Below are positions 34,230 to 53,211 of a stretch of DNA of 64,000 nucleotides, piece after piece; positions within the stretch are counted from its first letter, which is position 1; each line of letters begins with the position of its first letter. Below the pieces are notes generated by a model, which saw only the letters and a program-made list of their open reading frames with translations, was not told where the DNA came from and did not search any database. The stretch lies in assembly GCA_002633085.1 (NCBI GenBank), contig NSIV01000004.1:1-64000 (forward strand), given 5' to 3'. The translations under genes were made by a program, and so were the position numbers. Origin of the DNA: Curvibacter sp. PD_MW3. Its GTDB lineage: Bacteria; Pseudomonadota; Gammaproteobacteria; Burkholderiales; Burkholderiaceae_C.

Positions 34230-35495
34230 ATGCAGATATACATGGTAGGTGGTGCGGTCCGCGATGCCTTGCTGGGCTTGCCCGTGAAGGACCACGACTG
34301 GGTGGTAGTGGGCGCCACGCCGGAAGAGATGACGGCGCGCGGTTTTGTGCCGGTGGGCAAGGACTTCCCGGTGTTTTTGCACCCCGAGACCAAGCAGGAG
34401 TACGCGCTGGCGCGCACAGAGCGCAAGACGGCGCGCGGCTACAAGGGTTTCGCCATCCACACCTCGCCCGAAGTCACGCTGGAAGAAGACCTGGCGCGGC
34501 GCGATCTTACTATCAATTCGATAGCTGTTCGCGCAGACAATACAAGGCCAGATGGAACTTTTGATCTTGAACACCTGACCGACCCCTTCAACGGCCGGAA
34601 AGACGTGGCCGACAAGGTATTCCGTCACGTCACCCCCGCTTTCCGCGAGGACCCGGTGCGCATCCTGCGCGTGGCGCGCTTGTCGGCGCGCTTCACCGAC
34701 TTCACCGTGGCGCCCGAGACCATGACGCTGATGCAGCACATGGTGGAGGACGGCGAGGCCGACCACCTGGTGGCCGAGCGCGTCTGGCAGGAGCTCAGCC
34801 GCGGCCTGATGGAAGACAAACCGTCGCGCATGTTCGAGGTGCTGCGCGCCTGCGGTGCCCTCAAACGTCTGCTGCCGGAAGTGGACCGCCTGTGGGGTGT
34901 GCCGCAGCCGGAGCAGCATCACCCCGAGATCGACACTGGCGTGCACCTGATGATGGTGCTGGACACGGCCGCGCAATTGGGCACGTCGCTGGCCGTGCGC
35001 TTTGCCTGCCTGGGGCACGACCTCGGCAAGGGCACCACCGACCCCGAGGTGCTGCCACGCCACATCGGCCACGAGGAACGCAGTGCGCGTTTGCTCAAAG
35101 GTTTGTGCGAACGCCTGCGCGTGCCAGTGGACTGCCGCGAACTGGCCGACGTGGTGGCGCGCGAGCACGGCAACATCCACCGCAGTGGCGACCTCGGTGC
35201 GGCAGCACTGGTGCGCTTGCTGGAACGCTGCGATGCCATCCGCAAGCCACAGCGCTTCGCCGAGATCCTGCAAGCCTGCGCCTGCGATGCGCGCGGTCGC
35301 CTGGGGCGCGCAGACGAAGACTACCCGCAAGCCTTGCGGCTGCAGGCTGTGCTCGACGTGGTGCTGGGCGTTGCCACCCACACCATCGCCGAGCACGCCA
35401 TGGCGCAAGGGCACAACGGCAAGAAGATCGGCGAACTGATCCATGCCGCGCGCACCGACGCCGTTGCCCGCCATCTAGCCACTCTCGAACCCTGA
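34230..35495 (+). CDS. cca: Multifunctional CCA tRNA nucleotidyltransferase
   Basis: 421 residues. Class II nucleotidyltransferase head: MQIYMVGGAVRDALLG, catalytic DHD in VKDHDWVVVGA, LARRDLTINSIA. HD phosphohydrolase domain with FACLGHDLGKGTTDPEVLP and HIGHEERS. It adds or repairs the 3' CCA of tRNAs. Residues ~94-112, just after RRDL, are encoded by a ~58-bp dispersed repeat (34509-34566) and make this loop longer than in E. coli Cca. The frame is kept. Confidence 0.95.
   Translation: MQIYMVGGAVRDALLGLPVKDHDWVVVGATPEEMTARGFVPVGKDFPVFLHPETKQEYALARTERKTARGYKGFAIHTSPEVTLEEDLARRDLTINSIAVRADNTRPDGTFDLEHLTDPFNGRKDVADKVFRHVTPAFREDPVRILRVARLSARFTDFTVAPETMTLMQHMVEDGEADHLVAERVWQELSRGLMEDKPSRMFEVLRACGALKRLLPEVDRLWGVPQPEQHHPEIDTGVHLMMVLDTAAQLGTSLAVRFACLGHDLGKGTTDPEVLPRHIGHEERSARLLKGLCERLRVPVDCRELADVVAREHGNIHRSGDLGAAALVRLLERCDAIRKPQRFAEILQACACDARGRLGRADEDYPQALRLQAVLDVVLGVATHTIAEHAMAQGHNGKKIGELIHAARTDAVARHLATLEP
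34509..34566 (+). repeat. Dispersed ~58-bp repeat, copy A (inside cca)
   Basis: Core features shared with the other copies: CTATC, then ATAGCTG, CGCGCA, AAGGCCAGA-like and TTTTGATC blocks at the same spacing. Read in the cca frame it starts at codon 94 (ACT ATC ... ATA GCT), the stop-free phase of the repeat. It encodes IAVRADNTRPDGTF, parallel to the segment encoded by copy C. Confidence 0.75.
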
Positions 35496-35510
35496 ACTCA
35501 CCTATCTGCC

Positions 35511-37580
35511 ATGCCTGACACCGCCACCTCATCCACTCTGGTGCGGGGCGCCTGCCCGCACGACTGCCCTGACACGTGCGCCCTGCTGACGCAGGTGGAG
35601 AACGGTGTGGCCATCAAGGTGTCCGGCAACCCGGCACACACGCACACCGACGGCGTGCTGTGCGCCAAGGTCTCGAAGTACACCGAGCGCACCTACCATC
35701 CGGAACGCGTGCTGCACCCGCTACGCCGCACCGGACCCAAGGGCAGCGGCCAGTTCGAACGCATCACGTGGGACGAGGCGCTGCGCGAGATCGCCACCCG
35801 GCTGGGCGGCATCGCGCAGCGCAACCCGCAAGCCATCCTGCCTTACAGCTATGCCGGCACCATGGGGCTGGTGCAGGGCGAAGCGATGGCGGCGCGCTTC
35901 TTCCATCAGCTGGGCGCCTCGTTGCTGGACCGAACCATCTGCGCCTCCGCCGGTGGCGCGGGCCTGACGCACACACTGGGCGGCAAGCTCGGCATGCGGG
36001 TGCAGTTCTTCGCCGAGGCGAAGCTGATCCTGATCTGGGGCAGCAATTCGATCGGCAGCAACCTGCACTTCTGGCGCCTGGCGCAGGAGGCCAAGCGGCG
36101 CGGCGCCAAGCTGGTCTGCATCGACCCGCGCCGCAGCGAAACCGCCGAGAAGTGCCATGTGCACCTGGCGTTGCGCCCCGGCACCGACGCCGCCCTGGCG
36201 CTAGCCCTCATGCATGAGCTGATCCAGCACGACTGGCTGGACCACGATTACATCGAACGCCACACCCTGGGCTGGCCGGCACTGCGCGAGCGCGCGCTGC
36301 AATGGAGCCCGGAACGCGCGGCCGAGGTCTGCGGGCTGGAGGCACAGCAGATCCGCGACCTGGCACACGACTACGGCCAGTGCCTCGTGCGCGGCGAGCC
36401 GGCCGCCATCCGCCTGAACTACGGCATGCAGCGCGTGCACGGCGGCGGCAATGCGGCGCGTGCCGTGGCCTGCCTGCCGGCGCTCATCGGCGCCTGGCGC
36501 CACCGGGCCGGTGGCGTGCTGCTGAGCAGCTCGGGCGCTTACCCGACGCGGCGCGAAGCGCTGCAGCGCCCCGACCTGCTGGGCAACCGTCGTCCGCGGG
36601 TTCTCAACATGAGCACCATCGGTGACATCCTGCTGCACCAGGGCGATGCCTCCTGGGGGCCGAAGGTGGAGGCGCTGGTGGTCTACAACAGCAACCCGGT
36701 GGCGGTGGCGCCCGAATCCGGTGCGGTGGTGCGTGGTTTTGCGCGCGAGGACCTGTTCACCGTAGTGCTGGAGCATTTCCTGACCGACACCGCCGACCAT
36801 GCCGACATCGTGCTGCCCGCCACCACGCAGCTGGAGCACTGGGACATTCACACGGCCTACGGCCACACCGACGTGCTGCTGAACCGGCCGGCCATCGCCC
36901 CCCTGGGCGAGACGCGCAGCAACACGCAGATCTTCCGCGACCTGGCGCGGGCCATGGGCTTCGACGACCCTTGTTTTGCCGACAGCGACGAGACGCTGTG
37001 CCGCACCGCCTTCGACGGCCTGATCGATTTCGACGTGCTGCTGCGCGACGGTTTTGCCAGCCTGCCGCTGCCCGACGCCCCCTTCGCCCAGGGCGGCTTT
37101 GCCACGCCGTCCGGCCGCTGCGAGTTCTTCAGCGAAGCGCTGCAACGCAGCTGGGGCGACGGCCTGCCCGACCATGTACCCAACCACGAGCCGGCCGGCA
37201 GCGATGCGCGCTACCCGCTGGCCATGATCTCGCCGCCGGCGCGCAACTTCCTCAACTCGACCTTCGTCAACGTGAAGAGCCTGCGCGACATCGAGGCCGA
37301 ACCGGTGCTGGAGATGCACCCGACCGATGCCGCCGCGCGCGGCCTGCGCGACGGGCAGGCGGTGCGCGTATTCAACGACCGCGGCAGCTACCACTGCGTG
37401 CTGCGCCTCAACGGCCGCGCGCGCACAGGCGTGGTCAACGGCCTGGGCATCTGGTGGCGCAAGCTGGGCCTGAACGGCACCAACGTCAACGAACTGACCA
37501 GCCAGAAGCTGACCGACCTCGGCGGCGGCCCAGTGTTCTACGACTGTCTGGTTGAGGTGAGCGAAGTAAGCGCCGCCTGA
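35511..37580 (+). CDS. Molybdopterin-dependent oxidoreductase with N-terminal [4Fe-4S] cluster
   Basis: 689 residues. N-terminal cluster ligands in RGACPHDCPDTC, with the fourth Cys in GVLCAKV about 30 residues later. Mo-bis-MGD fold: SYAGTMGLVQGEAMAARFFH, LIWGSNSIGSNLHFWRLAQE, CIDPRRSETAEKC, LPATTQLEHWDIHTAYGHTD. The C-terminal cap domain has NDRGSYHCVLRLN and NVNELTSQKLTDLGGGPVFYD. No TAT signal, so cytoplasmic. The family (BisC/YyaE-like) includes sulfoxide and formate-type enzymes; substrate is unknown. It lies 15 bp downstream of cca. Confidence 0.85.
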   Translation: MPDTATSSTLVRGACPHDCPDTCALLTQVENGVAIKVSGNPAHTHTDGVLCAKVSKYTERTYHPERVLHPLRRTGPKGSGQFERITWDEALREIATRLGGIAQRNPQAILPYSYAGTMGLVQGEAMAARFFHQLGASLLDRTICASAGGAGLTHTLGGKLGMRVQFFAEAKLILIWGSNSIGSNLHFWRLAQEAKRRGAKLVCIDPRRSETAEKCHVHLALRPGTDAALALALMHELIQHDWLDHDYIERHTLGWPALRERALQWSPERAAEVCGLEAQQIRDLAHDYGQCLVRGEPAAIRLNYGMQRVHGGGNAARAVACLPALIGAWRHRAGGVLLSSSGAYPTRREALQRPDLLGNRRPRVLNMSTIGDILLHQGDASWGPKVEALVVYNSNPVAVAPESGAVVRGFAREDLFTVVLEHFLTDTADHADIVLPATTQLEHWDIHTAYGHTDVLLNRPAIAPLGETRSNTQIFRDLARAMGFDDPCFADSDETLCRTAFDGLIDFDVLLRDGFASLPLPDAPFAQGGFATPSGRCEFFSEALQRSWGDGLPDHVPNHEPAGSDARYPLAMISPPARNFLNSTFVNVKSLRDIEAEPVLEMHPTDAAARGLRDGQAVRVFNDRGSYHCVLRLNGRARTGVVNGLGIWWRKLGLNGTNVNELTSQKLTDLGGGPVFYDCLVEVSEVSAA

Positions 37581-37739
37581 CTTCAATCGCCGTCAGTCTT
37601 CCGGGCACACCAGAAAGGCTTGACACATGACAGCCTGAGATCGTGCGTAGTCCGGCTTTCCTTGATGCAAATCAGGTTTCGAGAGGACGGCCTTCGGCAG
37701 AATTCCCCCTACTTCAAGTAGTCCTATTGGGAGAGCCGT

Positions 37740-39353
37740 GTGCGGTCAAGTGTGAAACTGAAAATTTGGACCCAGTTGCTGGCCACCATCGGCGTGGCGC
37801 TGCTGGTCGTCTGGTCGGGTGTGATCGTCTGGCAAAGTTATGTGTCGCGCCAGGCCGCCTTGGCCCAGGCCCAGGACTTCTCCCTCAGCATGCACGACGC
37901 CACCATGGCCGGCCTGACCGGCATGATGGTCACCGGCACGGTGGCGCAGCGCAACATCCTGCTCGACCAGATCAAGCAGCTGGGCACCATTCGCGACGTG
38001 CGCGTGCTGCGTGCCGAGGCGGTGAGCAAGATCTTCGGCCCCGGCAGCGGCAAGGACGATGCCCAGCCCGATGCGCGCGAAAACCAAGTGCTGCAAAACG
38101 GCAAGGAACAGATCTGGACCGAAAGCGACGACAAGGGCGAGTACATGCGCGCCATCCGCCCGGCCATCGCCAGCAAGAACTACCTCGGCAAGGACTGCAC
38201 GGTGTGCCACCAGGTGCCCGAAGGCACGGTGCTGGGCGCAGTGAGCATGAAGGTCTCGCTCGACCACGTGAACCAGGGCCTGGTGGAACAGCGCTACAAG
38301 TCCATCTTGGCGGCCATCCTCACCAGCATTCCGGTGCTGCTGCTGATCTACCCCTTCATCCGCCGCGTCGTCACGGCCCCGCTGGCCGGCGGCGTGACGG
38401 CCGCACGCGCCATTGCCACCGGCGACCTGACGCAGAAGATCGAGGTCACCTCCGGCAACGAGGTGGGCGACCTGCAGCAGTCGCTGTGCGACATGAACGA
38501 CAGCCTGATCCGCATCGTCGGCCAGGTGCGCTCGGTTACCGACGAGATCTACACCGCCTCGAACGAAATCTCGCAACGCAATGCCGACCTGGCCGGCCGC
38601 ACCGAGGAGCAGGTGGGCACGCTGGAGCGCACCGCCCAGTCCATGCACCAGTTCACCGCCATGGTCAACCGCAATGCCGAAGACGCGCAGCGCGCCAACC
38701 GGCTGGTGCTTGACGCCTCCGAGGTGGCCACCCGCGGCGGCGGCGTGGTGTCACAGGTGGTGAAGACCATGGAGTCGATCGACAGTTCCTCCAAGCGCAT
38801 CGTGGACATCATTGGCGTCATCGACGGCATCGCCTTCCAGACCAACATCCTGGCGCTGAACGCGGCGGTGGAAGCCGCGCGCGCCGGTGAGCAGGGCCGC
38901 GGTTTTGCCGTCGTGGCAGCCGAGGTGCGCAGCCTGGCCCAGCGCTCGGCCGAAGCGGCCAAGGAAATCAAGACACTGATCGACGATTCGGCCGCGCGCG
39001 TGCAGACCGGCAGCGCCCTGGTGCACCAGGCCGGCGCCACGATGAAGGAAATCGTGGAGAGCATCCAGCACGTGACACAGATCATGAGCGGCATTGCCAC
39101 CGCGAGCGCCGAGCAGATCTCGGGCATCGCGCGTGTCAACCAGGACATCGACGGCATGAACAGCGCCACGCAGCAGAACGCAACCATGGTGGAACAAGCG
39201 GCCTTCAATGCCCGTTCGCTGCAGGAGCAGGCCGGCCACCTGGAGCAGGTGGTGCGCACCTTCAAGCTCGAGGTGGCGGCCGCGACTGCGGTCGCCGACG
39301 AGGCCCTGCCGACCGGCAGCGCGCCGCAGTTGCCCTACGACACCCGTCGCTGA
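37740..39353 (+). CDS. Methyl-accepting chemotaxis protein with periplasmic CXXCH haem-binding site
   Basis: 537 residues from a GTG start with GGGAG six bases upstream. Helix 1 (about 9-32, LLATIGVALLVVWSGVIVWQ), a periplasmic domain of ~155 residues, helix 2 (ILAAILTSIPVLLLIYPFIR), HAMP, and signalling tip [20 protein letters not shown]. In the periplasmic part lies GKDCTVCHQVPEGTVLGAV: CTVCH at residues 153-157 is a c-type haem attachment motif. Known: periplasmic haem-c chemoreceptors in Geobacter and Desulfovibrio sense redox or gases. This one probably does likewise. Confidence 0.88.
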   Translation: MRSSVKLKIWTQLLATIGVALLVVWSGVIVWQSYVSRQAALAQAQDFSLSMHDATMAGLTGMMVTGTVAQRNILLDQIKQLGTIRDVRVLRAEAVSKIFGPGSGKDDAQPDARENQVLQNGKEQIWTESDDKGEYMRAIRPAIASKNYLGKDCTVCHQVPEGTVLGAVSMKVSLDHVNQGLVEQRYKSILAAILTSIPVLLLIYPFIRRVVTAPLAGGVTAARAIATGDLTQKIEVTSGNEVGDLQQSLCDMNDSLIRIVGQVRSVTDEIYTASNEISQRNADLAGRTEEQVGTLERTAQSMHQFTAMVNRNAEDAQRANRLVLDASEVATRGGGVVSQVVKTMESIDSSSKRIVDIIGVIDGIAFQTNILALNAAVEAARAGEQGRGFAVVAAEVRSLAQRSAEAAKEIKTLIDDSAARVQTGSALVHQAGATMKEIVESIQHVTQIMSGIATASAEQISGIARVNQDIDGMNSATQQNATMVEQAAFNARSLQEQAGHLEQVVRTFKLEVAAATAVADEALPTGSAPQLPYDTRR

Positions 39354-39363
39354 ACCGCCCGGC

Positions 39364-39804
39364 TCAGCGCAGCTGGCTGCGCACCCAGGCGGCGATCTGC
39401 GCCGGTGAGGTCATGGCGCCCGGCTGGCGCGCCACCTCGCGCCCGCCCACGAACAACGCCAGCGTCGGAATGCTGCGGATGTTGAAACGGGCCGCCAGGT
39501 TCTGCGCCGCTTCGGTATTCACCTTGGCCACGCGCACCTGGGGTTCGAGCTGGCCGGCCGCCTGCTCGTAGGCCGGCGCCATCATGCGGCACGGCCCGCA
39601 CCAGGGCGCCCAGAAGTCCACCAACACGGGAATCTCGTTACGACTGATGTGACGCTCAAACGAGGCTTCATCCAGTTCCAGCGGATGCGCCGTGAACAAC
39701 GGCTGGTGGCACTTGCCGCAATCGGGCGCATGCCCCAAGTCGGCCACCTGGACCCGGTTGGTGGTGTGGCAGTGCGGACAGACGATGTGGCGCGTATCGC
39801 TCAT
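39364..39804 (-). CDS. trxC: Thioredoxin 2 (zinc-containing), TrxC
   Basis: 146 residues. N-terminal zinc module with two CxxC pairs (IVCPHCHTTNR and PDCGKCHQPLF), then the thioredoxin fold with active site FWAPWCGPCRMM and cis-Pro in IRSIPTLALF. TrxC reduces protein disulfides in the cytoplasm and is often induced by oxidative stress. It converges on the haem chemoreceptor gene with a 10-bp gap. Confidence 0.95.
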   Translation of the reverse strand: MSDTRHIVCPHCHTTNRVQVADLGHAPDCGKCHQPLFTAHPLELDEASFERHISRNEIPVLVDFWAPWCGPCRMMAPAYEQAAGQLEPQVRVAKVNTEAAQNLAARFNIRSIPTLALFVGGREVARQPGAMTSPAQIAAWVRSQLR

Positions 39805-39863
39805 GAGGAACCCCTTCTTCTCCTTCCCAGAATGGGGGCAGGGGTAGGCAGTTCAAGAGGTGG

Positions 39864-40058
39864 TCAGAGCACCTTGGCCACGCCGGCCGCCACCAGGCTC
39901 AGGATGATGGTGGTGGTCAGCGGCAGGTTGAACTCGCGGCCGAAGAGCGTGAAGTTCAGGTCGCCCGGCAGGCGGCCGAAGCCGATCTTCTTGAACCAGG
40001 GCGTGAAGGCGTTGATGATCAGCAACGCAATGAAGATGACGATGAGCCAGCGAAACAT
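39864..40058 (-). CDS. DUF2905 small membrane protein
   Basis: 64 residues with two membrane helices (FRWLIVIFIALLIINAF and LTTTIILSLVAAGVAKVL) joined by the DUF2905 core IGFGRLPGDLNF. Widespread in bacteria, function unknown. Starts 3 bp after the end of the MidA-like methyltransferase gene on the same strand, so co-transcribed with it. Confidence 0.87.
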   Translation of the reverse strand: MFRWLIVIFIALLIINAFTPWFKKIGFGRLPGDLNFTLFGREFNLPLTTTIILSLVAAGVAKVL

Positions 40059-40061
40059 GGT

Positions 40062-41159
40062 TCAGAGTGTATGGGTACGGTCACCCGCGGAGAAACCCAG
40101 CGCGGCCCAAGGCTCACCGGCCGTTAAACCGATGACCTTGAACAGCTCGCCCATTTCGTGCTCCATGATGAGCTTGCTGGCCTGGGCGCGTGCGGCCAGG
40201 TCGCTCTGCTCCATCAACTGCGCCAGGCCGCAGTTCAGCAGGAAGCGCGCCTGCGAGCTGTAGCCCAGCACCTCCAGCCCCGCTTCCTGCGCCGCCAACG
40301 CCACGCCGGTGAAGTTGACGTGGGCGGTGATGTCCTTCAGCCCCACGTCACACAAGGGGTCGGCATCCGCCTGGTGAGCGCGGTGGCACATCACGGTGCC
40401 CATGTGGCGCTGCAGGTGGTAGTACTCGCGCTCGGGAAAGCCGTAGTCGAGAAAGAAGGCCGCCCCCTGTTGCAGCTTGTCGGCCAGCGTGCGCACAAAA
40501 GCCTCGGCCTGCGGATGGATCTCGGTCAGGTAGTCGTGCGCGCCCTCCACCTCGATCGACGGGCGCAGCGCAGTGGCGCGGTCCTGCCAGACGAAAGCCT
40601 GCGTTGCGGCATCGACCGTCACGCCACGCTCATGCCAGACACCGCCCAGGCGGGCCAGCAGCTTGACCGGCATAGCGTCCAACACCTCGTTGCCGACCAC
40701 CACGCCCTGCATGGCCGCCGGCAACTCGCTGGCCCAGCGCACCTTGTCGCCGAACTTCTGCAGCGTTTGCTGCTGGCGTGCGCGCAGGGCGCCCGAGAGG
40801 TCGACGATGGTGTAGCGCGTCACCTGCTCGCCCAAAGTGTCGAGCAGTTGCAGCGCCAGCGCGCCGGAGCCGGCGCCGAACTCCCACACTTCATGGGTCT
40901 GCGTCTGCTGCAGCGCCTGCCCGACCTGGGCCGCCAGCGCGCGGCCGAACAGCGGCGACAGCTCGGGCGCGGTCACAAAGTCGCTGCCGGAGCCGGGCAT
41001 GAGGCCCAATTTGCGCAAATCGTTGGCGTAATAACCCAGGCCCGGGGTGTACAGGGTCTGGGCCATGAAGTCATCAAACCCGAGCCAGCCGCCGGCCACC
41101 TGGATGGCTTGCGCAATGCGGGATGTCAGGGCGGTCGTTAAACTGTCGGGTGTTGTCAT
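40062..41159 (-). CDS. SAM-dependent methyltransferase of the NDUFAF7/MidA family
   Basis: 365 residues from ATG 41157-41159. Seen: FDDFMAQTLYTPGLGYY, DFVTAPELSPLFGRALAAQV, the SAM loop VWEFGAGSGALALQLLDTLG, and FFLDYGFPEREYYH. Eukaryotic members methylate an arginine of complex I subunit NDUFS2; bacterial function is not firmly known. It diverges from the FolM-like reductase gene with start codons 20 bp apart. Confidence 0.85.
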   Translation of the reverse strand: MTTPDSLTTALTSRIAQAIQVAGGWLGFDDFMAQTLYTPGLGYYANDLRKLGLMPGSGSDFVTAPELSPLFGRALAAQVGQALQQTQTHEVWEFGAGSGALALQLLDTLGEQVTRYTIVDLSGALRARQQQTLQKFGDKVRWASELPAAMQGVVVGNEVLDAMPVKLLARLGGVWHERGVTVDAATQAFVWQDRATALRPSIEVEGAHDYLTEIHPQAEAFVRTLADKLQQGAAFFLDYGFPEREYYHLQRHMGTVMCHRAHQADADPLCDVGLKDITAHVNFTGVALAAQEAGLEVLGYSSQARFLLNCGLAQLMEQSDLAARAQASKLIMEHEMGELFKVIGLTAGEPWAALGFSAGDRTHTL

Positions 41160-41179
41160 TACCCGCCAATTCTCCCTCA

Positions 41180-41974
41180 ATGCCTGCATCCTCTCCCACG
41201 CGCACGGTTCTCGTCACCGGCTCGGCCAAACGGCTGGGGCGCGAGATCGCGCTCGCCTTGGCTCGCGCCGGCTGGCAGGTGGCGGTGCATTACCGTGGCT
41301 CGGCGGATGATGCTATGAAAACCGTAGCTGATTGCGCTGCATTCACGGCGTCTGCAGCCGCTTTTGATGCCGATCTGGCGGATGAGGCGGCGGTGCGTGC
41401 ACTGCTGCCGCGGGTGATTACCCACTTTGGCCAGGTCGATGCCGTGGTCAACAGCGCGGCGATTTTCGAGCACGACAGCGCGAAAAGTTTCAGCTTTGCC
41501 GCCATGGAACGGCACCTGCGCTGCAACACCGGCGCGGCCATCATCCTGGCGCAGGCACTGCATGCCCACGTGAGCGAGCGTACCGGTCGGGGCGGCAACG
41601 GGAACGACGCCGGACGTGGTGTCGTGGTCAACCTGCTGGACCAGAAGCTGTGGAACCAGAATCCGGACTTCATCAGCTACACCCTGTCCAAGGCTGCGCT
41701 GGAAGCCGCCAACACCATGCTGGCCCAGGCGCTGGCCCCCAGGGTGCGGGTGGTAGGCGTGGCGCCGGGCCTGACGCTGACCAGCGAATTCCTGACGCCA
41801 GAGAAGTTCGAGGCACTGCACAAGCTGTCGCCCCTGGGCCGCTCGTCCACCGCGGACGACGTGGCGGCAACGGTGAAGTTCGCGTTGGAGAATTCGTCCA
41901 TCACCGGCACCACGCTGCTGGTGGATGGCGGCCAGCACCTGATGCGCTTCGAGCGTGATTTTTCGATGATGTGA
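41180..41974 (+). CDS. Pteridine-reductase-like SDR, probable dihydromonapterin reductase (FolM-like)
   Basis: 264 residues from ATG 41180. The nucleotide loop is VLVTGSAKRLGREIALALAR, with the TGxxxRxG form of pteridine reductases instead of TGxxxGxG, which favours NADPH. Active site YTLSK near residue 171, preceded by LLDQKLWNQNPDF typical of FolM/PTR1. The next gene, 7 bp on, is folB, which supports a pterin role. Residues ~45-64 are encoded by repeat copy B. FolM call is an inference from motif plus neighbour. Confidence 0.8.
   Translation: MPASSPTRTVLVTGSAKRLGREIALALARAGWQVAVHYRGSADDAMKTVADCAAFTASAAAFDADLADEAAVRALLPRVITHFGQVDAVVNSAAIFEHDSAKSFSFAAMERHLRCNTGAAIILAQALHAHVSERTGRGGNGNDAGRGVVVNLLDQKLWNQNPDFISYTLSKAALEAANTMLAQALAPRVRVVGVAPGLTLTSEFLTPEKFEALHKLSPLGRSSTADDVAATVKFALENSSITGTTLLVDGGQHLMRFERDFSMM
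41312..41370 (+). repeat. Dispersed ~58-bp repeat, copy B (inside the FolM-like gene)
   Basis: The most diverged copy. GCTATGAAAA, GTAGCTG, TTGCGCTGCATT and CTTTTGATGC align with the other copies at equal spacing. It begins at codon 45 in phase GCT ATG, the same phase as copies A and C. It encodes AMKTVADCAAFTASAAAFDA, a region that varies in SDR proteins. Confidence 0.6.
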
Positions 41975-41981
41975 GGGCACG

Positions 41982-42353
41982 ATGTCCAATAACAAAAGTA
42001 CCCAGATCCTCACGCTCACCGGCTTGCGCTTCGATGCCAACCTGGGCATCCTCGACCATGAGAAAACCGCGCCTCAGCCGATCCAGGTGGACGCCGAGCT
42101 CAACCTCGGCCCGCAGGCGCTGCTGCCGCACGACGACGACATCAACCACGTGTTGGACTACCGCAAGGTGCGCCAGATCATCATCAACGAATGCACAGCC
42201 GAGCACGTGAACCTGCTGGAAAGCATGATCGGCAAGCTGGCCAACCGCCTGCTGCAGCTGCCCGGCGTGGTGGGCGTACGCGTGAAGATCGTCAAGCTGG
42301 AGATCTTCGACGACTGCGAAGTGGCGATCCGCGCCGAGACGGGAACCTGGTAA
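41982..42353 (+). CDS. folB: Dihydroneopterin aldolase
   Basis: 123 residues, the usual length. Seen: TLTGLRFDANLGILDHEK at the start, NHVLDYRKVRQII, NLLESMIGKLANRLL with the catalytic Glu, and VKIVKLEIFDDCEVA. It splits dihydroneopterin to 6-hydroxymethyl-dihydropterin and glycolaldehyde in folate synthesis. Follows the FolM-like gene by 7 bp. Confidence 0.92.
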   Translation: MSNNKSTQILTLTGLRFDANLGILDHEKTAPQPIQVDAELNLGPQALLPHDDDINHVLDYRKVRQIIINECTAEHVNLLESMIGKLANRLLQLPGVVGVRVKIVKLEIFDDCEVAIRAETGTW

Positions 42354-42354
42354 A

Positions 42355-42403: not shown

Positions 42404-42453
42404 CCGTGAAATTGGGCTCTGACCCTCACTGATTGAGATGAATTGAGAAAACC

Positions 42454-43377: not shown

Positions 43378-43388
43378 GCGCCACGCCC

Positions 43389-43985: not shown

Positions 43986-44002
43986 GTCGCGGCAAATCAT
44001 TG

Positions 44003-44647: not shown

Positions 44648-44746
44648 GCGGTACCCGAACCACCAAGGGCCACGCACACTGGCAGGCGCCACGCATTCGG
44701 GTTAGTGCGAGGGACGCACCGTGCCGACCCTGACGACAATCTGCCC

Positions 44747-45430
44747 ATGACGTTCCACTCGACCAGCGCGCCCTCCAACCCGCTTTTTCTGCTGCTGATC
44801 GTGCTCGCCGCCGTGTCCACCGGCACGGCAAGCGCCGGGCTGATCGAGCTGCACCGCATCACCAAGCCGCTGGCCATGCTGATTGCTATTATTTTTATAG
44901 CTATTCGCGCATACCAATCAAGACCCAGAGGCCGATTTGAATCACGATTCAAAGCATGGCTGCTGATCGCCCTCGCCTGCTCGCTGGCAGGCGACGTGGC
45001 CCTGATGGTCCCGGGCTACTTCATCCCCGGCCTGGTGGCTTTCCTGCTGGCCCACCTGAGTTACATCGCCCTGCTGAAGCAGGGCCAGGTCTGGTTTGCG
45101 AGCCGGCGCGCGCTCATGGCCACGCTGGGCTTTGGCGCCGCCATGTATGCCGTGCTCTGGATTGGTGGCTTGCCGCCCGCCCTGCGCGCACCGGTGGCCG
45201 CCTATGTGGTGGTGATCGCGCTGATGGCGGCACAGGCCATCGGCCGTGCCACGGTGCTGCGCGACCAGGCGGCCTGGGGTGTGGCCATCGGTGCCGGCTT
45301 CTTCATGCTCAGCGACACGCTGCTGGCACTCAACAGGTTCGTCGTCCCGCTGCCGCTGGCACCGCTGTGGGTGCTCAGTACCTATTACGCGGCACAGATC
45401 CTGATCGTGCGCCACGCACGACCAAGCTGA
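44747..45430 (+). CDS. Lysoplasmalogenase / YhhN-type membrane protein
   Basis: 227 residues with about seven or eight membrane helices, for example NPLFLLLIVLAAVSTGTASA, HRITKPLAMLIAI, WLLIALACSLAGDVALMVPG and LPLAPLWVLSTYYAAQILIV. The YhhN/TMEM86 signature KPLAM...SLAGD is visible. Animal members cleave the vinyl ether bond of lysoplasmalogens; the bacterial role is unclear. Residues ~47-66, between the first two helices, are encoded by repeat copy C, giving a basic stretch IRAYQSRPRGRF unlike its neighbours. Confidence 0.84.
   Translation: MTFHSTSAPSNPLFLLLIVLAAVSTGTASAGLIELHRITKPLAMLIAIIFIAIRAYQSRPRGRFESRFKAWLLIALACSLAGDVALMVPGYFIPGLVAFLLAHLSYIALLKQGQVWFASRRALMATLGFGAAMYAVLWIGGLPPALRAPVAAYVVVIALMAAQAIGRATVLRDQAAWGVAIGAGFFMLSDTLLALNRFVVPLPLAPLWVLSTYYAAQILIVRHARPS
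44885..44943 (+). repeat. Dispersed ~58-bp repeat, copy C (inside the YhhN-like gene)
   Basis: GCTATTATTTTTATAGCTA, then CGCGCATA, AAGACCCAGAGGCC and ATTTGAATC. Markedly A/T-rich against the surrounding gene, so it stands out by eye. It begins at codon 47 in phase GCT ATT, the same phase as copies A and B. A near-perfect internal inverted repeat AGCTAT/ATAGCT-like lies at its left end. Confidence 0.8.
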
Positions 45431-45437
45431 CGACAGG

Positions 45438-46153
<716 letters not shown>

Positions 46154-46157
<4 letters not shown>

Positions 46158-47389: not shown

Positions 47390-47400
47390 GGCGATTCCGC

Positions 47401-48564
47401 TCAGCGCCCCATGGCGTTGCTCAGCGCCGAGCCGGCACTGCCAGCGCCATCGGCGCGCTGCGCAGACGGCGACGCCGCAGCGGGCTGCCAGGCCACGGGA
47501 CTGACGCTGACGCGCTGGCCGGCCTTCAGCGCCGTGCTGGTCAGCACGGCGTCGCCAGCGCGCAGACCGTCGAGCACCTCTACGGCCGCCAAGGTGCGCA
47601 AGCCCAGTCGCAGCCGGCGCTCCTGCGCAACGCCGTCAACGGCAACCAATACGCTGGCCGTGTCACCCTGGGCCTGCCGCAGCGCGGCCAAGGGCAGGGC
47701 CAAGGCCTGCTCACGGCGGCCGGTTTCAACCTCGACCGACAGCGTCATGTCTTCACGCAGAAAAGCGGGCGGCTCCTGCAGCAGGGTGAACTTGACCTCG
47801 ATGGCGCCACGCTGCGCGTCCACCACCGGCGCGATGGACAGGATCTTCGCCGCGAAGCGCTGGCCGGCAAAGGCATCGGCCACCACCGCCGCCTGCTGGC
47901 CCGTCTGCAACTGGTCCAGGAAGCGCTCGTCCACCTGTGCCACCAACTGTGTCGGGCCGGTCAGTGCCAGGCTCAAGAGGGCCTTGCCCGGCTGCACGAT
48001 CTGGCCGGGTTCGACCTGGCGCGACAGCACGCGGGCATCGGCCGGCGCCACCAGCACCGCCTGCGTCAGGCGTGCGCGTGATGCGGCCACGGCGGCACGG
48101 GCCGAGCCGCGCTGCGCCACGGCGACATCAACCGCACGTTGGGCCTCGTCAAGTTGCGCCGCACTGTAAAAACCCTGCGCCACCAGTTGCTGGCCGCGCT
48201 TCAGCGTGGCTTGCGCTGCCTGCAACGTGGCGTCGGCCTGGCGCTCAGCGGCCACGGCCTGCGACAGCGCGGCATTCAATTCATCGGTTTCGAGCCGGAT
48301 CAGCACCTCGTCGGCCCGCACCTGCGCCCCTTCACGCACCAGCACCTGCGCCACCCGGCCGGTCAGGGTGCTGCCGACATCGACGCGCGACAGCGTGGCC
48401 ACGCGAGCGGAAAACTGCAGGGTGCGCACCAAGGGGCCGGGCTGCATCAGCAGTGCCTCAGCACGCGGTGCACGCAAGGTGAAGGCCGCCAGCGCGGCGA
48501 GTGCCAGCGTGAGCAACACGGCGATAACGATCCAACGGGTCTTGCCGGCAGGAAGTTTGATCAT
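47401..48564 (-). CDS. Periplasmic adaptor (membrane-fusion protein) of the MacB/DevC-like exporter
   Basis: 387 residues from ATG 48562-48564. Membrane anchor WIVIAVLLTLALAALAAFTL, then the RND/HlyD plan: VDVGSTLTGRVAQVLVREGA, a helical hairpin rich in Gln/Ala (QADATLQAAQATLKRGQQLV), VLVAPADARVLSRQVEPGQI, a beta-barrel, and a C-terminal membrane-proximal domain. It starts the three-gene operon. The 200 bp upstream hold a hairpin-rich repeat element instead of an obvious promoter. Confidence 0.87.
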   Translation of the reverse strand: MIKLPAGKTRWIVIAVLLTLALAALAAFTLRAPRAEALLMQPGPLVRTLQFSARVATLSRVDVGSTLTGRVAQVLVREGAQVRADEVLIRLETDELNAALSQAVAAERQADATLQAAQATLKRGQQLVAQGFYSAAQLDEAQRAVDVAVAQRGSARAAVAASRARLTQAVLVAPADARVLSRQVEPGQIVQPGKALLSLALTGPTQLVAQVDERFLDQLQTGQQAAVVADAFAGQRFAAKILSIAPVVDAQRGAIEVKFTLLQEPPAFLREDMTLSVEVETGRREQALALPLAALRQAQGDTASVLVAVDGVAQERRLRLGLRTLAAVEVLDGLRAGDAVLTSTALKAGQRVSVSPVAWQPAAASPSAQRADGAGSAGSALSNAMGR

Positions 48565-48601
48565 CTCGGTTGCTCCAACATGCCCCCAGCGATCCAAAGC
48601 G

Positions 48602-48798
48602 AATGAAACGAGCTAACCGGGAAACGCCGTGGAACCGGCTTCGCCGGTCCACTGGCGTTGCCCCCTGCAAGGGGGGCTGAGGCCTGCGGCTCCAAGCCTG
48701 CCTGCGCAGGCTTGGACAGGCCGAAGAGCCTTGGCCTCTGGCCGAGGCCCCACGGCGGTAAGCGACACGAAGTGCGCGAAGCCTGGGGGTGTTTCATT
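48602..48798. repeat. 197-bp hairpin-rich element with terminal inverted repeats
   Basis: Ends are AATGAAAC (48602-48609) and GTTTCATT (48791-48798), perfect inverted copies. Inside are four stems. AACGCCGTGG/CCAC-T-GGCGTT encloses ACCGGC/GCCGGT (48623-48659). The others are CCCCCT/AGGGGG (48661-48675), CCAAGCCTG/CAGGCTTGG (48692-48715) and GGCCTC/GAGGCC (48733-48749). It fills the whole space between ruvB and the adaptor gene and ends at the ruvB stop. It looks like a REP/MITE-type element; both flanking genes are on the same strand. Confidence 0.7.
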
Positions 48799-49881
48799 TC
48801 ATGCCTCGAACAGGCCGCCCTCGGTCTTGGGCGGCGTCACGCCCAGGTGGCGGTAGGCCGCCAGCGTGGCAATGCGCCCGCGCGGCGTGCGCTGCAGGAA
48901 GCCTTGCTGGATCAGGTAGGGCTCGATCACGTCCTCGATGGTGTCGCGCTCTTCGCCAATGCTGGCGGCGATGTTGTCCAGGCCCACGGGGCCGCCGTCG
49001 AAGCGATGAATCACGGCTTCCAGCAGCTTGCGGTCCATCAGGTCGAAGCCCTGTGGGTCGACGTCGAGCATGGCCAGCGCCTTGTGCGCAATGTCCTGCG
49101 TGATGCGGCCAGTGCCCTTGACCTCGGCGTAGTCGCGCACGCGGCGCAGCAGGCGGTTGGCAATGCGCGGCGTGCCGCGCGAGCGGCGCGCGATCTCGAA
49201 ACCGCCTTCGGCGTCCATCGGCGCATTGAGCAGACCGGCGCTGCGCGTGACGATGCGGCCCAGCTCTTCGGCCGAATAAAACTCCAGCCGCGCGACGATG
49301 CCGAAACGGTCGCGCAACGGGTTGGTCAGCATGCCAGCGCGCGTGGTGGCCCCCACCAGCGTGAAGGGCTGCAGGTCGAGCTTGATGGAACGCGCCGCCG
49401 GCCCTTCGCCGATCATGATGTCGATCTGGTAGTCCTCCAGCGCGGGGTAGAGGATTTCCTCCACCACCGGTGACAGGCGGTGGATCTCGTCGATGAAGAG
49501 CACGTCGTTCTTCTCGAGGTTGGTCAAGAGCGCCGCCAGGTCCTTGGGCTTTTCCAGCACCGGGCCGCTGGTCTGGCGCAGGTTCACGCCCAGCTCGTGC
49601 GCAATGATGTGGGAGAGCGTGGTCTTGCCCAGGCCGGGTGGGCCGAACAGCAGCACGTGGTCCAGCGCTTCCTCGCGCTTTCTGGCCGCGCCGATGAAGA
49701 TCTCCAGCTGCTCGCGCACCTTGGCCTGGCCCACGTACTCGTCCAGCAGCTTGGGCCGTAGCGCGCGCTCGATCGCCTCCTCGCCGGGCGAAGTCGGCGC
49801 GGCCGAGACCACGCGGTTGGCGGAAGAGGGGGCAAAGTCGTCGGTCTGGATGCTCACGGCAGAATCAGGGGGAGATGTCAC
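48799..49881 (-). CDS. ruvB: Holliday junction ATP-dependent DNA helicase RuvB
   Basis: 360 residues. Walker [21 protein letters not shown], Walker [11 protein letters not shown], sensor 1 [20 protein letters not shown], arginine finger and sensor 2 [18 protein letters not shown], and a winged-helix C-terminus ending [16 protein letters not shown]. RuvB hexamers drive branch migration with RuvA. In many bacteria ruvA and ruvB are adjacent; here they are 1.7 kb apart with a carbonic anhydrase gene on the other strand and a YkvA gene between. Confidence 0.97.
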
Positions 49882-50001
49882 ACAAAACGCTGGCGTTTTA
49901 CGCCATGATGCACGACTATACCCCCTGGACCTTGTTGCCTGACCGGCCTCTTTTTATATCTTCTCAAGCCGGGCGCCGCCCGTGCCGATACCCTAGAAAC
50001 C

Positions 50002-51150
50002 ATGTCTGATCGTCTGCTGCCCACCCCCTGGATGTTCCGCTCACGCTATGTCGCCATGACGGGACTTGGCCTGGCCTGCCTGCTGGCACTGCCGCCCTTG
50101 CGCGCGGCCGAGCCCAACGCCAAGCCAACACCTGGCACCGCCGTCGGCCAGGACATTGCCGAGCAGCTGCGCGAGGCGGCCAAAGGCAACCTGTCGCAGA
50201 AACAGCTCACCGTGATCGTCAACGGCTCGGAAGCCAAGAGCACCGGCATCACGGCCATCCCCAAACCGGCCAAACCGGTGGCCCCGACCAAACCGGCCGG
50301 GGCAAGCGCCAAGGCCGCGGAGCCTGAACCATCCGAGCCGCCCGCACCGGCGGTGCAAGGCCACAAGCCGGCGCCCGTCTCGTCGCAATACCAGCGCGCC
50401 CGTACCGCTGCCCTGGTCGGCCACGCAGCACCGACCGCATCACCCAAGAAAGAGAGCCACGGCCACGACGTGCACTGGGCTTATGAAGGCGAAGGCGGCC
50501 CCGATGCCTGGGGCCAGCTGAAATCGGAATTCAAGACCTGTGCCATCGGCAAACGCCAGTCGCCCATCCACATCCAGGAATCGAACACGCTGCAAGGCCC
50601 GGCCGAGGCCATCCAGTTCAGCTACCAACCCAGCCAGGGCACGGTGGTGAACAACGGCCACACGATTCAGGTGGATGTGATTGGCAACAACAGCATCACG
50701 GTGCGCGGCTCCAACTACAGGCTGCTGCAGTTCCACTTCCACCACCCGTCGGAAGAGCGCATCAACCACAAGGTGTATTCCATGGTGGCGCACCTGGTGC
50801 ACCGCAATGCCGAGGGCCAGTTGGCCGTGGTGGCCGTGCTGCTCGACCCGGGTGCGGCCAACGGCCTGATCAACAAGGTCTGGACCTACATGCCGCTCGA
50901 CAATGGTGACGCCGTGCGCATGCCCGACGGTCTGCTGGACCTGAACGAGCTACTGCCGAAAGACCAGCGTTATTACCAGTTCCTCGGCTCGCTCACCACA
51001 CCGCCCTGCACCGAAGGCGTGTTGTGGCTGGTGCTGAAGCAGCCCACCACCGTCAGCGCGGAGCAGCTCAAGCTGTTCAGCCAGCTCTACCCGCACAACG
51101 CGCGCCCGGTGCAGCCGATCAACGACCGCCCGATCCGCGACGCGCAGTAA
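50002..51150 (+). CDS. Secreted alpha-carbonic anhydrase with long N-terminal linker
   Basis: 382 residues. Signal peptide around YVAMTGLGLACLLALPPLRA. About 110 residues rich in Ala, Pro, Lys and Thr follow (KPAKPVAPTKPAGASAKAAE), then an alpha-CA domain from HWAYEG. Zinc ligands: two His in LLQFHFHHPSEE and one in MVAHLVHRN. Also seen: QSPIHIQ, TTPPCTEGVLWLV, and the Cys pair CAIGKRQSPI/PPCTEG for a disulfide. It hydrates CO2 in the periplasm. The linker may span peptidoglycan. A start at ATG 50032 is also possible. Confidence 0.9.
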   Translation: MSDRLLPTPWMFRSRYVAMTGLGLACLLALPPLRAAEPNAKPTPGTAVGQDIAEQLREAAKGNLSQKQLTVIVNGSEAKSTGITAIPKPAKPVAPTKPAGASAKAAEPEPSEPPAPAVQGHKPAPVSSQYQRARTAALVGHAAPTASPKKESHGHDVHWAYEGEGGPDAWGQLKSEFKTCAIGKRQSPIHIQESNTLQGPAEAIQFSYQPSQGTVVNNGHTIQVDVIGNNSITVRGSNYRLLQFHFHHPSEERINHKVYSMVAHLVHRNAEGQLAVVAVLLDPGAANGLINKVWTYMPLDNGDAVRMPDGLLDLNELLPKDQRYYQFLGSLTTPPCTEGVLWLVLKQPTTVSAEQLKLFSQLYPHNARPVQPINDRPIRDAQ

Positions 51151-51166
51151 ACCGAAGGGCGCCGGT

Positions 51167-51559
51167 CTAGCCGGCGAAGACCCGCCAGCCCCAGGCCACG
51201 CCTAAAGCGGCAATCCCCAGCCAGATCAGCACGATGACGACCGCCGCCACGCGGCTGGTCGGCTTGCCCGCTTGCCTGGCGGCTTGCACCTTGGCGTGGC
51301 ACTCATCCAGCACCGCCTGCGGCACCAGCTTGATGGCCAGCGCGATACCCAGCGGAATCAGCACCAAGTCGTCCAGATAACCCAGCACCGGCACGAAGTC
51401 CGGAATCAGGTCGATCGGGCTGAAGGCATAGGCCACGATGACGGCCACCAGCAGCTTGGCGTACCAAGGCGTGGCCGGATGGCGCGCCGCCAGGTACAGC
51501 ACATAGGTCTCGCCCTTGAGCGCCTTGGCACGCCGCTTGAGCCGAGCCAGCCAGGCCAT
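51167..51559 (-). CDS. YkvA-family (DUF1232) membrane protein
   Basis: 130 residues. The family core YAFSPIDLIPDFVPVLGYLD followed by DLVLIPLGIALAIKLVP is unmistakable; a C-terminal helix VAAVVIVLIWLGIAALGVAW anchors it. Function unknown. It lies 11 bp after the ruvA stop on the same strand and converges on the carbonic anhydrase gene. Confidence 0.88.
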   Translation of the reverse strand: MAWLARLKRRAKALKGETYVLYLAARHPATPWYAKLLVAVIVAYAFSPIDLIPDFVPVLGYLDDLVLIPLGIALAIKLVPQAVLDECHAKVQAARQAGKPTSRVAAVVIVLIWLGIAALGVAWGWRVFAG

Positions 51560-51570
51560 AGGGCCCGCCT

Positions 51571-52143
51571 TTACCTGGCCAGTGCCTTGAGCGCGAGCTT
51601 GATGCCCTCGCTCACGCCCACGTCACCCGGCAAGGCCTTGAGCGCGGCGGCGGCTTCCTTGTCGCTGTAGCCCAGGGCCAGCAACGCCTGCAGGATGTCG
51701 GCCTGCGCATCGTCCACCGGGCCACCCACGGCGCCGATGTCGGCCCCCAGCTTGCCCTTGAGTTCCAGCAGCAGGCGCTCGGCCGTCTTCTTGCCGATGC
51801 CCGGCACCTTGACCAGGCGGCCGGCTTCCTGCAAGCTCACCGCCTGCGCCAGTTCGGCCACGCTCATGCCCGAGAGCACGGCCAGCGCGGTGCGCGGGCC
51901 GACGCCGCTGATCTTGATCAATTGGCGGAACGCTTCACGTTCAGTGGGTGTGCCGAAGCCATAGAGCAGCTGGGCATCCTCGCGCACGATGAAATGCGTC
52001 AGCAGGCTGACCTTCTCGCCCAGGTTGGGCAGGTTATAGAAGGTGCTCATGGAGACCTGGACTTCGTAGCCCACGCCATGGCAGTCCACCAGCACCTCGG
52101 GTGGATTTTTTTCGAGAAGAATGCCTGTGAGCCGGCCGATCAT
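51571..52143 (-). CDS. ruvA: Holliday junction branch migration complex subunit RuvA
   Basis: 190 residues. OB-fold start [20 protein letters not shown], helix-hairpin-helix motifs [19 protein letters not shown] and [20 protein letters not shown], and the mobile C-terminal domain [19 protein letters not shown] that contacts RuvB. RuvA tetramers clamp Holliday junctions. Divergent from phoH; the downstream YkvA gene is on the same strand. Confidence 0.97.
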
Positions 52144-52224
52144 GGGGTGTCCGTTTTGTTGTCAGTGACTATGATTGCAGTTTGGGCCCGTTGTCATGCC
52201 GGCCCGCTTACAGGAATTATCAGC

Positions 52225-53169
52225 TTGATTCTCCGCCACCTCTTCTCTCCGCCGAATAACGCCCGTCTGGCCCACCTGTGCGGCCCCATGGACGAGCACC
52301 TGCGCACCATCGAGACCGCGCTGCAGGTGAAGATCGCCCACCGCCATGAGCAGTTCAAGGTCGACGGCCCCAAGGTCAAGGCCAAACGCGGCATGGAAGT
52401 GCTGCAGGCGCTGTATGAAATGGCGGCGCGCCCGATTGACACCGCCACCGTGCAACTGATGCTGGCCGGCGACGCCGCCATGGCCACGGAAGAAGGCGAA
52501 ACCCTGCAAACCCGGCGCAGCAACCTGCGCGCCCGCACCCCCAACCAGGCGCACTACCTGGACAGCATCGCCAACCAGGACATCACCTTCGGCATCGGCC
52601 CGGCCGGCACCGGCAAGACCTACCTGGCGGTGGCCTGCGCAGTGGACGCGCTGGAGCGCAGCGTGGTGCAGCGCATCGTGCTCACACGCCCGGCGGTGGA
52701 AGCCGGCGAGCGCCTGGGCTTTCTGCCCGGCGACCTGACACAGAAGATCGACCCCTACCTGCGCCCGCTGTACGACGCGCTGTACGACCTGATGGGTTTC
52801 GAGAAGGTGCAGAAGGCCTTCGAGCGCAACGCGCTGGAGATCGCGCCGCTGGCCTTCATGCGCGGGCGCACGCTCAACAACGCCTTCGTCATCCTGGACG
52901 AAGCGCAGAACACCACGCCCGAGCAGATGAAGATGTTCCTCACCCGCATCGGCTTCGGTTCGCGCGCCGTGGTCACCGGCGACGTCAGCCAGATCGACCT
53001 GCCCAAGACGCAGCTCAGCGGTCTGATCGACGCCGAGCGCGTGCTCAAGCGCGTCAACGGTATCGCCATCTGCCGCTTCACCAGCGCCGACGTGGTGCGC
53101 CACCCGCTGGTGGCCCGCATCGTCGACGCCTATGACAAGCCCCGCGCCAGAACGCTATCAAAAGAATAG
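52225..53169 (+). CDS. PhoH-family ATPase
   Basis: 314 residues from a TTG at 52225 with AGGA nine bases upstream; this gives MILRHLFSPPNNARLAHLCG, as I remember for related PhoH proteins. Longer in-frame extensions run antisense into ruvA. Walker A FGIGPAGTGKTYLAVACAV, Walker B FVILDEAQNTTPEQMKMFLT, and GFGSRAVVTGDVSQIDLP. PhoH is a nucleotide-binding protein next to ybeY in many genomes and linked with RNA metabolism. Its last four codons and stop lie inside repeat copy D. Confidence 0.92.
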   Translation: MILRHLFSPPNNARLAHLCGPMDEHLRTIETALQVKIAHRHEQFKVDGPKVKAKRGMEVLQALYEMAARPIDTATVQLMLAGDAAMATEEGETLQTRRSNLRARTPNQAHYLDSIANQDITFGIGPAGTGKTYLAVACAVDALERSVVQRIVLTRPAVEAGERLGFLPGDLTQKIDPYLRPLYDALYDLMGFEKVQKAFERNALEIAPLAFMRGRTLNNAFVILDEAQNTTPEQMKMFLTRIGFGSRAVVTGDVSQIDLPKTQLSGLIDAERVLKRVNGIAICRFTSADVVRHPLVARIVDAYDKPRARTLSKE

Positions 53170-53211
53170 CTGCTTGCGCATATTTGACAAGGGCCAGAGG
53201 CCAAAATGACC
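53154..53211 (+). repeat. Dispersed ~58-bp repeat, copy D (phoH/ybeY junction)
   Basis: GCTATCAAAAGAATAGCTGC, then TTGCGCATATTTGACAAGGG, CCAGAGGCC and AAAATGACC. Unlike copies A-C it lies in a different phase: AATAG supplies the phoH stop (53167-53169), AGAGG provides the ybeY ribosome-binding site, and AAATGAC the ybeY ATG (53206-53208). It therefore forms the entire junction of the two genes. Confidence 0.8.

Follow-up and report, generated by a model that had tools for sequence, protein, structure and literature searches.

The closest described systems to the repeat considered here are the uptake signal sequences (USS) of Pasteurellaceae and the DNA uptake sequences (DUS) of Neisseriaceae. 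In the literature, cited here by PubMed Central number, the uptake sequences of Haemophilus are described as having AT-rich flanks, lying in both orientations, being commoner in non-coding DNA and arising without gaps (PMC1626085), and the extended uptake signals of Pasteurellaceae reach 32 nt (PMC12616744). Acidovorax temperans has been reported to be transformed only by DNA of the same species, and DNA uptake by Verminephrobacter to be selective and type IV pilus-dependent (PMC4212676). The DNA analysed in this study is a stretch of 64,000 nucleotides from Curvibacter sp. PD_MW3 (contig NSIV01000004.1, positions 1 to 64,000; hereafter the window), in which a preliminary description made from the letters alone had noticed a dispersed repeat of about 58 bp with four copies. 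We find that these copies belong to a degenerate motif that is dispersed through this genome and through other genomes of the Comamonadaceae, and that at one deeply conserved site, in the gene cca, the codons forming the motif are retained at the DNA level across genera and are absent in motif-poor species of the window's own genus. On our analysis there is about an even chance that the copies represent a genome-wide Comamonadaceae DNA recognition motif read in trans, most likely an uptake signal for natural transformation.

A dispersed motif in Comamonadaceae genomes

The copies in the window and the genes around them are as follows.

34230..35495, plus strand: cca, CCA-adding enzyme / tRNA nucleotidyltransferase, with relatives 4wby and 1vfg in the PDB
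34509..34573, plus strand: motif copy in cca, 22.6 bits with the first profile and 20.8 with the cleaned one; encodes TINSIAVRADNTRPDGTFDLEH and is the subject of the orthologue alignments
41123..41974 (alternative start 41177), plus strand: FolM-like short-chain dehydrogenase, with PDB relative 5tgd (FolM, E 1e-42)
41312..41376, plus strand: motif copy in the FolM-like gene, 24.6 bits (first profile) and 27.5 (cleaned)
44705..45430, plus strand: open reading frame around the third copy, labelled YhhN-like in the preliminary description
44885..44949, plus strand: motif copy in this putative YhhN-like membrane protein gene, 28.9 bits (first) and 27.7 (cleaned)
51922..53169, plus strand: open reading frame, putative phoH (label from the same description; start codon not settled)
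53154..53218, plus strand: motif copy across the phoH/ybeY junction, 43.3 bits (first) and 41.1 (cleaned)
53206..53661, plus strand: open reading frame, putative ybeY (label likewise from that description)
17708..17772, minus strand: doubtful fifth copy, 14.4 bits (first) and 11.0 (cleaned), in a gene that we take to be glmU

All four copies noticed earlier were found at their coordinates, on the plus strand and with equal spacing, and they align without gaps. A dispersed repeat with four copies therefore stands, but its length has to be revised from 58 bp to about 65 bp. Three copies lie within genes, conserved genes that harbour the motif remain intact, and the fourth copy crosses the phoH/ybeY junction, where its ATAG is the stop of phoH and the ybeY frame begins within its right end. 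The copies are also, as had been said of them, richer in A/T than their surroundings, with a G+C content of 40-54% against 65-68% in the 500-base flanks. They are identical in pairs at 28-40 of 65 positions and are a degenerate motif rather than near-identical repeats. In a genome about 90% identical to ours (G014), the site of the doubtful glmU copy scores 11.4 bits.

The first profile, of 68 columns with few alignment gaps, was derived from six genomes of other genera so as to avoid circularity. Because 8 of its 79 rows match, in reverse complement, places already represented in it, a second profile, cleaned to 71 places, was used beside it; scores shift by a few bits, and the only conclusion affected is that on the glmU copy, which falls to 11.0 bits. 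Neither profile has a match of at least 14 bits in 952 kb of third-order shuffles, or one of at least 10 bits in 541 kb of sequence taken from three relatives in the same genus that have 0-2 core matches. The core pattern itself, GCTAT-N7-ATAGCTGCTnGCGC, which is counted throughout at stated mismatch limits, has 4 matches in the window with three mismatches allowed; the expectation from shuffles is 0.06. A scan of the window with Rfam at gathering thresholds returned 0 matches.

The search of the genome and its relatives that the preliminary description had proposed revealed a dispersed family. At up to three mismatches the genome (3.37 Mb in 17 contigs) holds 80 forward and 90 reverse core matches, or 170 against 6 for the reversed pattern, and the window's contig holds 15 copies of at least 14 bits in 238 kb (16 with the cleaned profile). 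Matches at no more than one mismatch occur in 31 of 120 sampled genomes of the family, with a maximum of 239 in the genome designated G015, and the reversed pattern has 2 matches in all over the same 120 genomes. The number of matches at up to two mismatches divides the window's genus sharply: it is 87-114 in four species and 0-8 in the remaining 22. In fixed-interval samples the density per 100 kb is 35 copies in G015, 21 in G072, 11 in G085 and 3 in G003, or 35, 24, 11 and 5 with the cleaned profile. The loci used for profile training and those of the named carriers were chosen for holding copies, and the window's contig was not.

Named carriers come from a strict-pattern search of one genome per species over 84,980 species, limited to the best 80 of 90 stretches. 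Among the matches listed they are Acidovorax (temperans, facilis, delafieldii, radicis and others), Polaromonas, Giesbergeria, Simplicispira, Rhodoferax bucti, Comamonas badia, Comamonas granuli, Ottowia, one Rubrivivax bin and some coarsely labelled bins, one of them labelled Chloroflexota; the A. delafieldii record is itself a bin. Nearly all named carriers are Comamonadaceae, in agreement with the remark, in the preliminary description, that similar strings occur in genomes of that family.

An exact core match was found in 21 viral contigs, against 3 for the reversed pattern. Of these contigs, 17 score 14 bits or more, so copies are present on some contigs from phages or prophages. One copy was found in two 50-kb stretches from Polaromonas plasmids taken together. 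The E. coli plasmid NZ_MZ513635.1 has a copy of 43.7 bits (L223:1495-1551) in a DUF1010 cassette, presumably gcuF, that lies between dfrA12 and aadA2 in a class 1 integron and may have come from a Comamonadaceae genome. The consensus is matched by 1751 plasmid records, and most of the 20 listed match within the DUF1010 gene.

Codon retention in cca and the question of insertion

The cca copy overlays the codons of the conserved T-I-N-x-I-A, and of 16 motif-bearing genera examined, 15 have at this site a motif-like segment, which departs from 19 specified bases at 1-6 positions. The codons were compared in 17 genera, namely the window's own and 16 of the 30 genera with matches, mostly picked for high counts. 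They are ACT in 15/17, AAT in 16/17, ATA in 15/16 and GCT or GCA in 16/17, in genera where the mean G/C-ending fraction at the other 136 near-invariant cca columns is 0.85. In 11 of the 22 motif-poor congeners the same codons are ACC or ACG (10/10), AAC (11/11), ATC or ATT (9/9) and GCC (11/11). With the first profile the site scores at least 15 bits in 4 of 4 rich congeners and in 11 of the 14 rich other genera in which it could be located (of 16), compared with none of the 11 poor congeners and none of the 30 genera that lack core matches; among these 30, G031 scores highest, at 12.4 bits. The cleaned profile at 14 bits or more gives the same 4/4 and 11/14, the highest of the others being 12.2, and the highest score of all is that of G015 (49.5 bits with the first profile, 44.2 with the cleaned one). 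The cca genes of rich genera are 70-81% identical to that of the window and those of poor congeners 71-84%, so gene-wide similarity does not explain the retention of codons. The contrast within the genus weighs more than that with the genera lacking matches, because many of the latter may fall outside Comamonadaceae.

Judged by eye (L255-L270, L032-L051, L315-L344), most motif-bearing genera have a longer cca loop after T-I-N-A-I/M-A than do most genera lacking matches. The longer loop is also present in congeners that lost the DNA motif, and it is perhaps a protein scar of the motif.

The suggestion that the copies are an inserted element, and that a comparison of orthologues with and without it would reveal clean insertion and a target duplication, is not supported as it was stated. 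Against three motif-poor relatives (G125, G130 and G139) the length differs by 0, 0 and 0 bp at the cca site and by 0, 3 and 0 bp at the FolM-like site, and at both sites motif-lacking congeners encode nearly the same protein with different DNA, for example ACCATCAACGCCATCGCC replacing ACTATCAATTCGATAGCT; the motif is there a matter of which codons are used. The difference is likewise 0 bp at genic copies elsewhere on the contig (145660, 191814 and 222469), 9-12 bp at the doubtful glmU copy, and 12 and 27 bp at the YhhN-like site relative to motif-poor relatives, of which G125 retains a degenerate GCTATTGTTTTGGTAGC. At further, non-coding copies on the contig the differences are +60, +60 and +18 bp (126416), +68 and +54 bp (149470, fairly clean), +54 and +41 bp (173346), +126 bp (178286), 5-10 bp (140099) and -9 bp (211748), and no target duplication is apparent in five alignments, two of which are incomplete. 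An inserted element as first proposed is not supported at cca and the FolM-like gene, and it keeps partial support at some intergenic copies, where 43-68 bp are gained. The three relatives have probably lost the DNA motif, so that the length comparison with them is by itself compatible with an old insertion. Equal length was dropped as proof against insertion, as the 30 genera without core matches suggest that the longer cca loop is genus-wide.

Compared with distant solved homologues, the net gain is 0 residues in the FolM-like protein (a 2-residue gap lies at the edge and none inside the motif), 6 in cca, 4-6 in TilS, 10 in Tex and 14 in CobU. All of these are fewer than the roughly 22 residues that the motif encodes, so that the motif in genic copies lies for the most part over sequence that was already there and lengthens it to some extent. 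Copies of 41-54 bits lie within cobU (L176:4217-4281), tilS (L174:6099-6163) and tex (L107:2371-2435), where they adjoin conserved motifs.

Gains of this kind, both in TilS, cca, Tex and CobU and at the non-coding sites, keep alive a somewhat unlikely alternative, in which the motif is a non-autonomous mobile palindromic element, similar to miniature inverted-repeat transposable elements (MITEs) or repetitive extragenic palindromic (REP) sequences, that spreads by inserting itself, mostly into intergenic DNA, and whose genic copies are worn and refitted old insertions. Its fixed length and loose pseudo-palindrome would suit such an element, as would its placement in a copy-selected set of 228 copies (300 profile matches less reverse self-matches), 90 of which are intergenic and 52 mostly intergenic; between divergent genes it is scarce, since 10 of 155 placed copies lie there although 183 of the 988 gaps are of this type. 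An insertion cannot, however, supply the deeply conserved cca codons that the motif overlays, and the retention of those codons across genera with their loss in poor congeners speaks against it, as does the lack of covariation described below. Nor does the comparison with G014 favour mobility: counterparts exist at the same place for 10/10 and 11/11 copies with placed flanks, three of them weak (6.7-11.4 bits), the copies differ mainly by substitutions, and no presence/absence polymorphism was seen among placed copies (the flanks of four copies of our genome were not placeable).

A possible source of mobility was considered in a diverged Y1 transposase gene, similar to IS200 and to REP-associated tyrosine transposases (RAYTs), which is present, mostly once, in 88 of the 120 family genomes. 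It occurs in 27 of 31 motif-bearing genomes but also in 61 of 89 others. The gene in our own genome is located as follows.

L031, G000:C5:940875-941201: Y1 (IS200/RAYT-like) transposase gene

No motif copy lies within 1.5 kb of it. Together, 21 Y1 neighbourhoods of 89 kb in all contain 9 copies (or 8 by the cleaned profile), which is within the range of the fixed-interval densities, although in 5 of the 20 neighbourhoods from other, motif-rich genomes a copy seems, by arithmetic, to lie near the 3' end of the gene. A REP sequence mobilised by a RAYT was rejected as improbable, the gene in our genome being unflanked and the copy density near the 20 other Y1_Tnp genes ordinary, apart from the five with a 3' copy. 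On the contig G015:C1, from the highest-copy genome, there are 20 matches to Y1_Tnp; several score the same and look like recent IS200 copies.

In a version of the uptake reading that we consider possible but doubtful, the motif would be a self-spreading, uptake-biasing signature of about 65 bp that is copied into new sites by short-patch overwriting. Favoured fragments would then replace look-alike stretches of the chromosome, including codons of conserved enzymes, and the net gain would lie anywhere between 0 and about 68 bp. Short-patch illegitimate recombination can accompany transformation; no description of it came up in the literature searched.

Architecture, placement and a proposed reader of the motif

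Over 234 copies the information exceeds background between about positions -1 and 65, and the motif is loosely pseudo-palindromic and nearly ungapped. The consensus consists of a left half, GCTAT...ATAGCTGCTnGCGC, and a GCGC-rich centre, together with a GaGGC block; A-tracts lie close to either end. When read in reverse, 93 of 128 strong copies match the cleaned profile at 8 bits or more and 29 at 14 bits or more. The A-tract at positions 51-54 is TTTT or AAAA interchangeably, and TpA steps are avoided, being seen 3 times at 52-53 where 45 are expected and 7 times at 9-10 where 32 are expected. The 45 column pairs with the strongest mutual information (234 copies) are all at most 3 columns apart, none being long-range. 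At 15 pairs of the central palindrome in 222 copies, 66.2% of cells pair, against 66.1% with shuffled partners, and there are 113 double changes in paired columns, against 110 ± 9. A hairpin of RNA or of single-stranded DNA was therefore rejected, at the level of the family, as the feature under selection. Because the paired columns do not covary and the A-tracts avoid TpA, the motif appears to be read as DNA by a protein and not as a hairpin, and its sequence fits a two-fold protein that reads both sequence and groove shape.

The spacer between groES and groEL in Acidovorax (L093:7784-7848, L285-L314) has a motif copy in 22 of 27 aligned genomes and lacks it in 5. This copy folds into a long stem, a hairpin of 14 bp in which some species show compensatory changes, and is an exception to the family.

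That spacer is one of the observations in favour of a family of bidirectional transcription terminators or mRNA hairpins. The consensus folds at -21.6 kcal/mol, the non-genic copies have a mean z of -1.76, and in the fixed-interval samples 21 of the 47 placed non-coding copies lie between convergent genes, compared with 55 of 285 gene pairs. The paralogous copies show no covariation, however, those between co-directional genes take both orientations (55 and 42 in the copy-selected set), others lie within the coding sequence of conserved genes, and the exchange of TTTT for AAAA at 51-54 is disallowed for a one-way terminator; we regard this explanation as very improbable.

Gene calls in the fixed-interval samples were made with a simple purpose-made caller, which called 87% of the sequence coding; 44 of 70 copies are intergenic, 5 lie at gene edges and 21 within genes. 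Divergent gene pairs hold 6 of the 47 placed non-coding copies and make up 57 of the 285 pairs. Among 62 genic copies, phases 0, 1 and 2 number 22, 10 and 4 on the same strand as the gene and 5, 18 and 3 on the opposite strand, and by our reading of the consensus the favoured frames are probably those without stop codons. Plus and minus copies number 15 and 19 in G015, 15 and 6 in G072, and 20 and 14 in G003, with no consistent polarity over the three. Replication polarity, of which there was a hint by eye in G003, was not borne out in G015.

A site for a chromosome-organising or regulatory protein, such as a nucleoid-associated protein, a condensin loader or a two-fold regulator, would be selected at each site separately. 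The partial two-fold symmetry, the A-tracts that avoid TpA and the retention at orthologous sites (cca and groES-groEL) are all consistent with such a protein. A swing in density among related genomes, which have anything from some 35 copies per 100 kb down to almost none, the lack of polarity in G015 and the occurrence of copies within genes of many kinds make it distinctly unlikely.

We infer instead a reader acting in trans, preferential uptake and drive. A protein would read the motif DNA itself. Lineages that have this reader would keep and improve copies wherever the sequence allows, both between genes and, by means of the codons used and the residues tolerated, within them; where the reader is missing, copies would decay. 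Natural transformation through the type IV pilus would preferentially take up fragments that bear the motif, and their repeated recombination would enrich it. The reported restriction of transformation to same-species DNA in A. temperans, a carrier of the motif, and the selective, pilus-dependent uptake of Verminephrobacter (PMC4212676) speak for such a function.

A number of observations weigh against an uptake signal. A. temperans is not transformed by DNA of A. facilis or A. delafieldii, as reported in PMC4212676, and genomes bearing these two names carry the motif like A. temperans itself. The Verminephrobacter plasmid pVEIS01 has no copy in 31 kb, although this is one plasmid and not the chromosome. 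The consensus is weak, with 6 exact and 24 single-mismatch core matches in our genome. At the cca site, the motif is absent from one motif-bearing genus (G009), two others (G099 and G064) score only 6-7 bits, and an ACTATyAATTCAATAGC core is kept in 3 of the 30 genera without core matches (G042, G054 and G031), where we read it as a probable remnant. The phoH/ybeY copy is longer by 46, 43 and 43 bp than its counterparts in G125, G130 and G139, and point mutation alone does not explain this class of gain, which amounts to 43-68 bp at several non-coding copies and 9-42 bp at some coding ones. In the clade of our genome, conserved motif positions of coding copies change no more slowly than the flanks (30/225 against 362/3426), and those of intergenic copies only slightly more slowly than variable positions (26/199 against 31/171). 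The window's clade may, to judge from these substitutions, already be losing the motif or no longer maintaining it. At the Acidovorax groEL site the conserved positions do change more slowly (35/420 against 60/331), perhaps for a reason of that site's own.

If an uptake signal is nevertheless what the motif represents, a large and ecologically common family, with Acidovorax, Polaromonas, Rhodoferax, Comamonas and others, would label DNA as its own by means of a long signature, which influences codon choice in core genes and which lineages of a single genus gain and lose. Natural transformation in these bacteria, which has been reported as sequence-selective without a known signal, would become directly testable, and close relatives with and without the mark would provide pairs for finding the receptor. 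Even with another reader protein, DNA-level retention over such a length in conserved genes would be unusual.

Comparison with described systems

Several described classes of repeat share features with the motif. Like the Rickettsia palindromic elements it is palindromic and lies in frame within protein genes, but those elements are insertions of 100-150 bp and the genic copies here largely overlay existing codons. An imperfect palindrome and a net gain at some intergenic sites are reminiscent of MITEs and of the enterobacterial repetitive intergenic consensus (ERIC), but no terminal repeat pair or target duplication has been established and our genome and G014 show no polymorphism. The integron attC site ends in GTTRRRY and RYYYAAC, and such ends are absent from the motif consensus. 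REP/RAYT systems and REPINs resemble the motif as short, palindromic, dispersed and mainly intergenic repeats. They differ from it in that our genome has no repeat-flanked RAYT gene, the motif shows no stem covariation (222 copies) and copies lie within conserved genes, and also in the tag GTAG or CGTC (PMC3733652), which is absent from the profile consensus and from that of 234 copies.

The likeness to USS and DUS is closer. According to two papers (PMC1626085, PMC2346458), these number hundreds of copies per genome on both strands, consist of a core with AT-rich flanks in the case of the USS, and are enriched between genes, present also within genes in a preferred reading frame, and fading in some lineages. 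The motif shares with them its over-representation (170 matches against 6 reversed, and 35 copies per 100 kb in G015) and its occurrence in both orientations. At about 65 bp it is far longer than their 9-32 nt (core 9-13 nt) and about twice the extended Pasteurellaceae signals, and it does not have the strong consensus in which exact copies outnumber those mismatched once, which adds to the points against an uptake signal; the known signals have more exact copies than the motif does (PMC1626085). Its loose pseudo-palindrome, a lower density except in G015, partial insertions and a different taxon set it apart further. Because of its length, weak consensus and partial insertions, we keep it apart from the USS/DUS class.

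No paper containing the core 14-mers was found, the matches listed holding only a shorter 10-mer, and a search that left most subscription journals outside found no prior description of such an uptake sequence or repeat in these taxa. If it does serve as an uptake signal, it would be, to our knowledge, the longest one known, two-fold symmetric, and the first at this scale outside Neisseriaceae and Pasteurellaceae.

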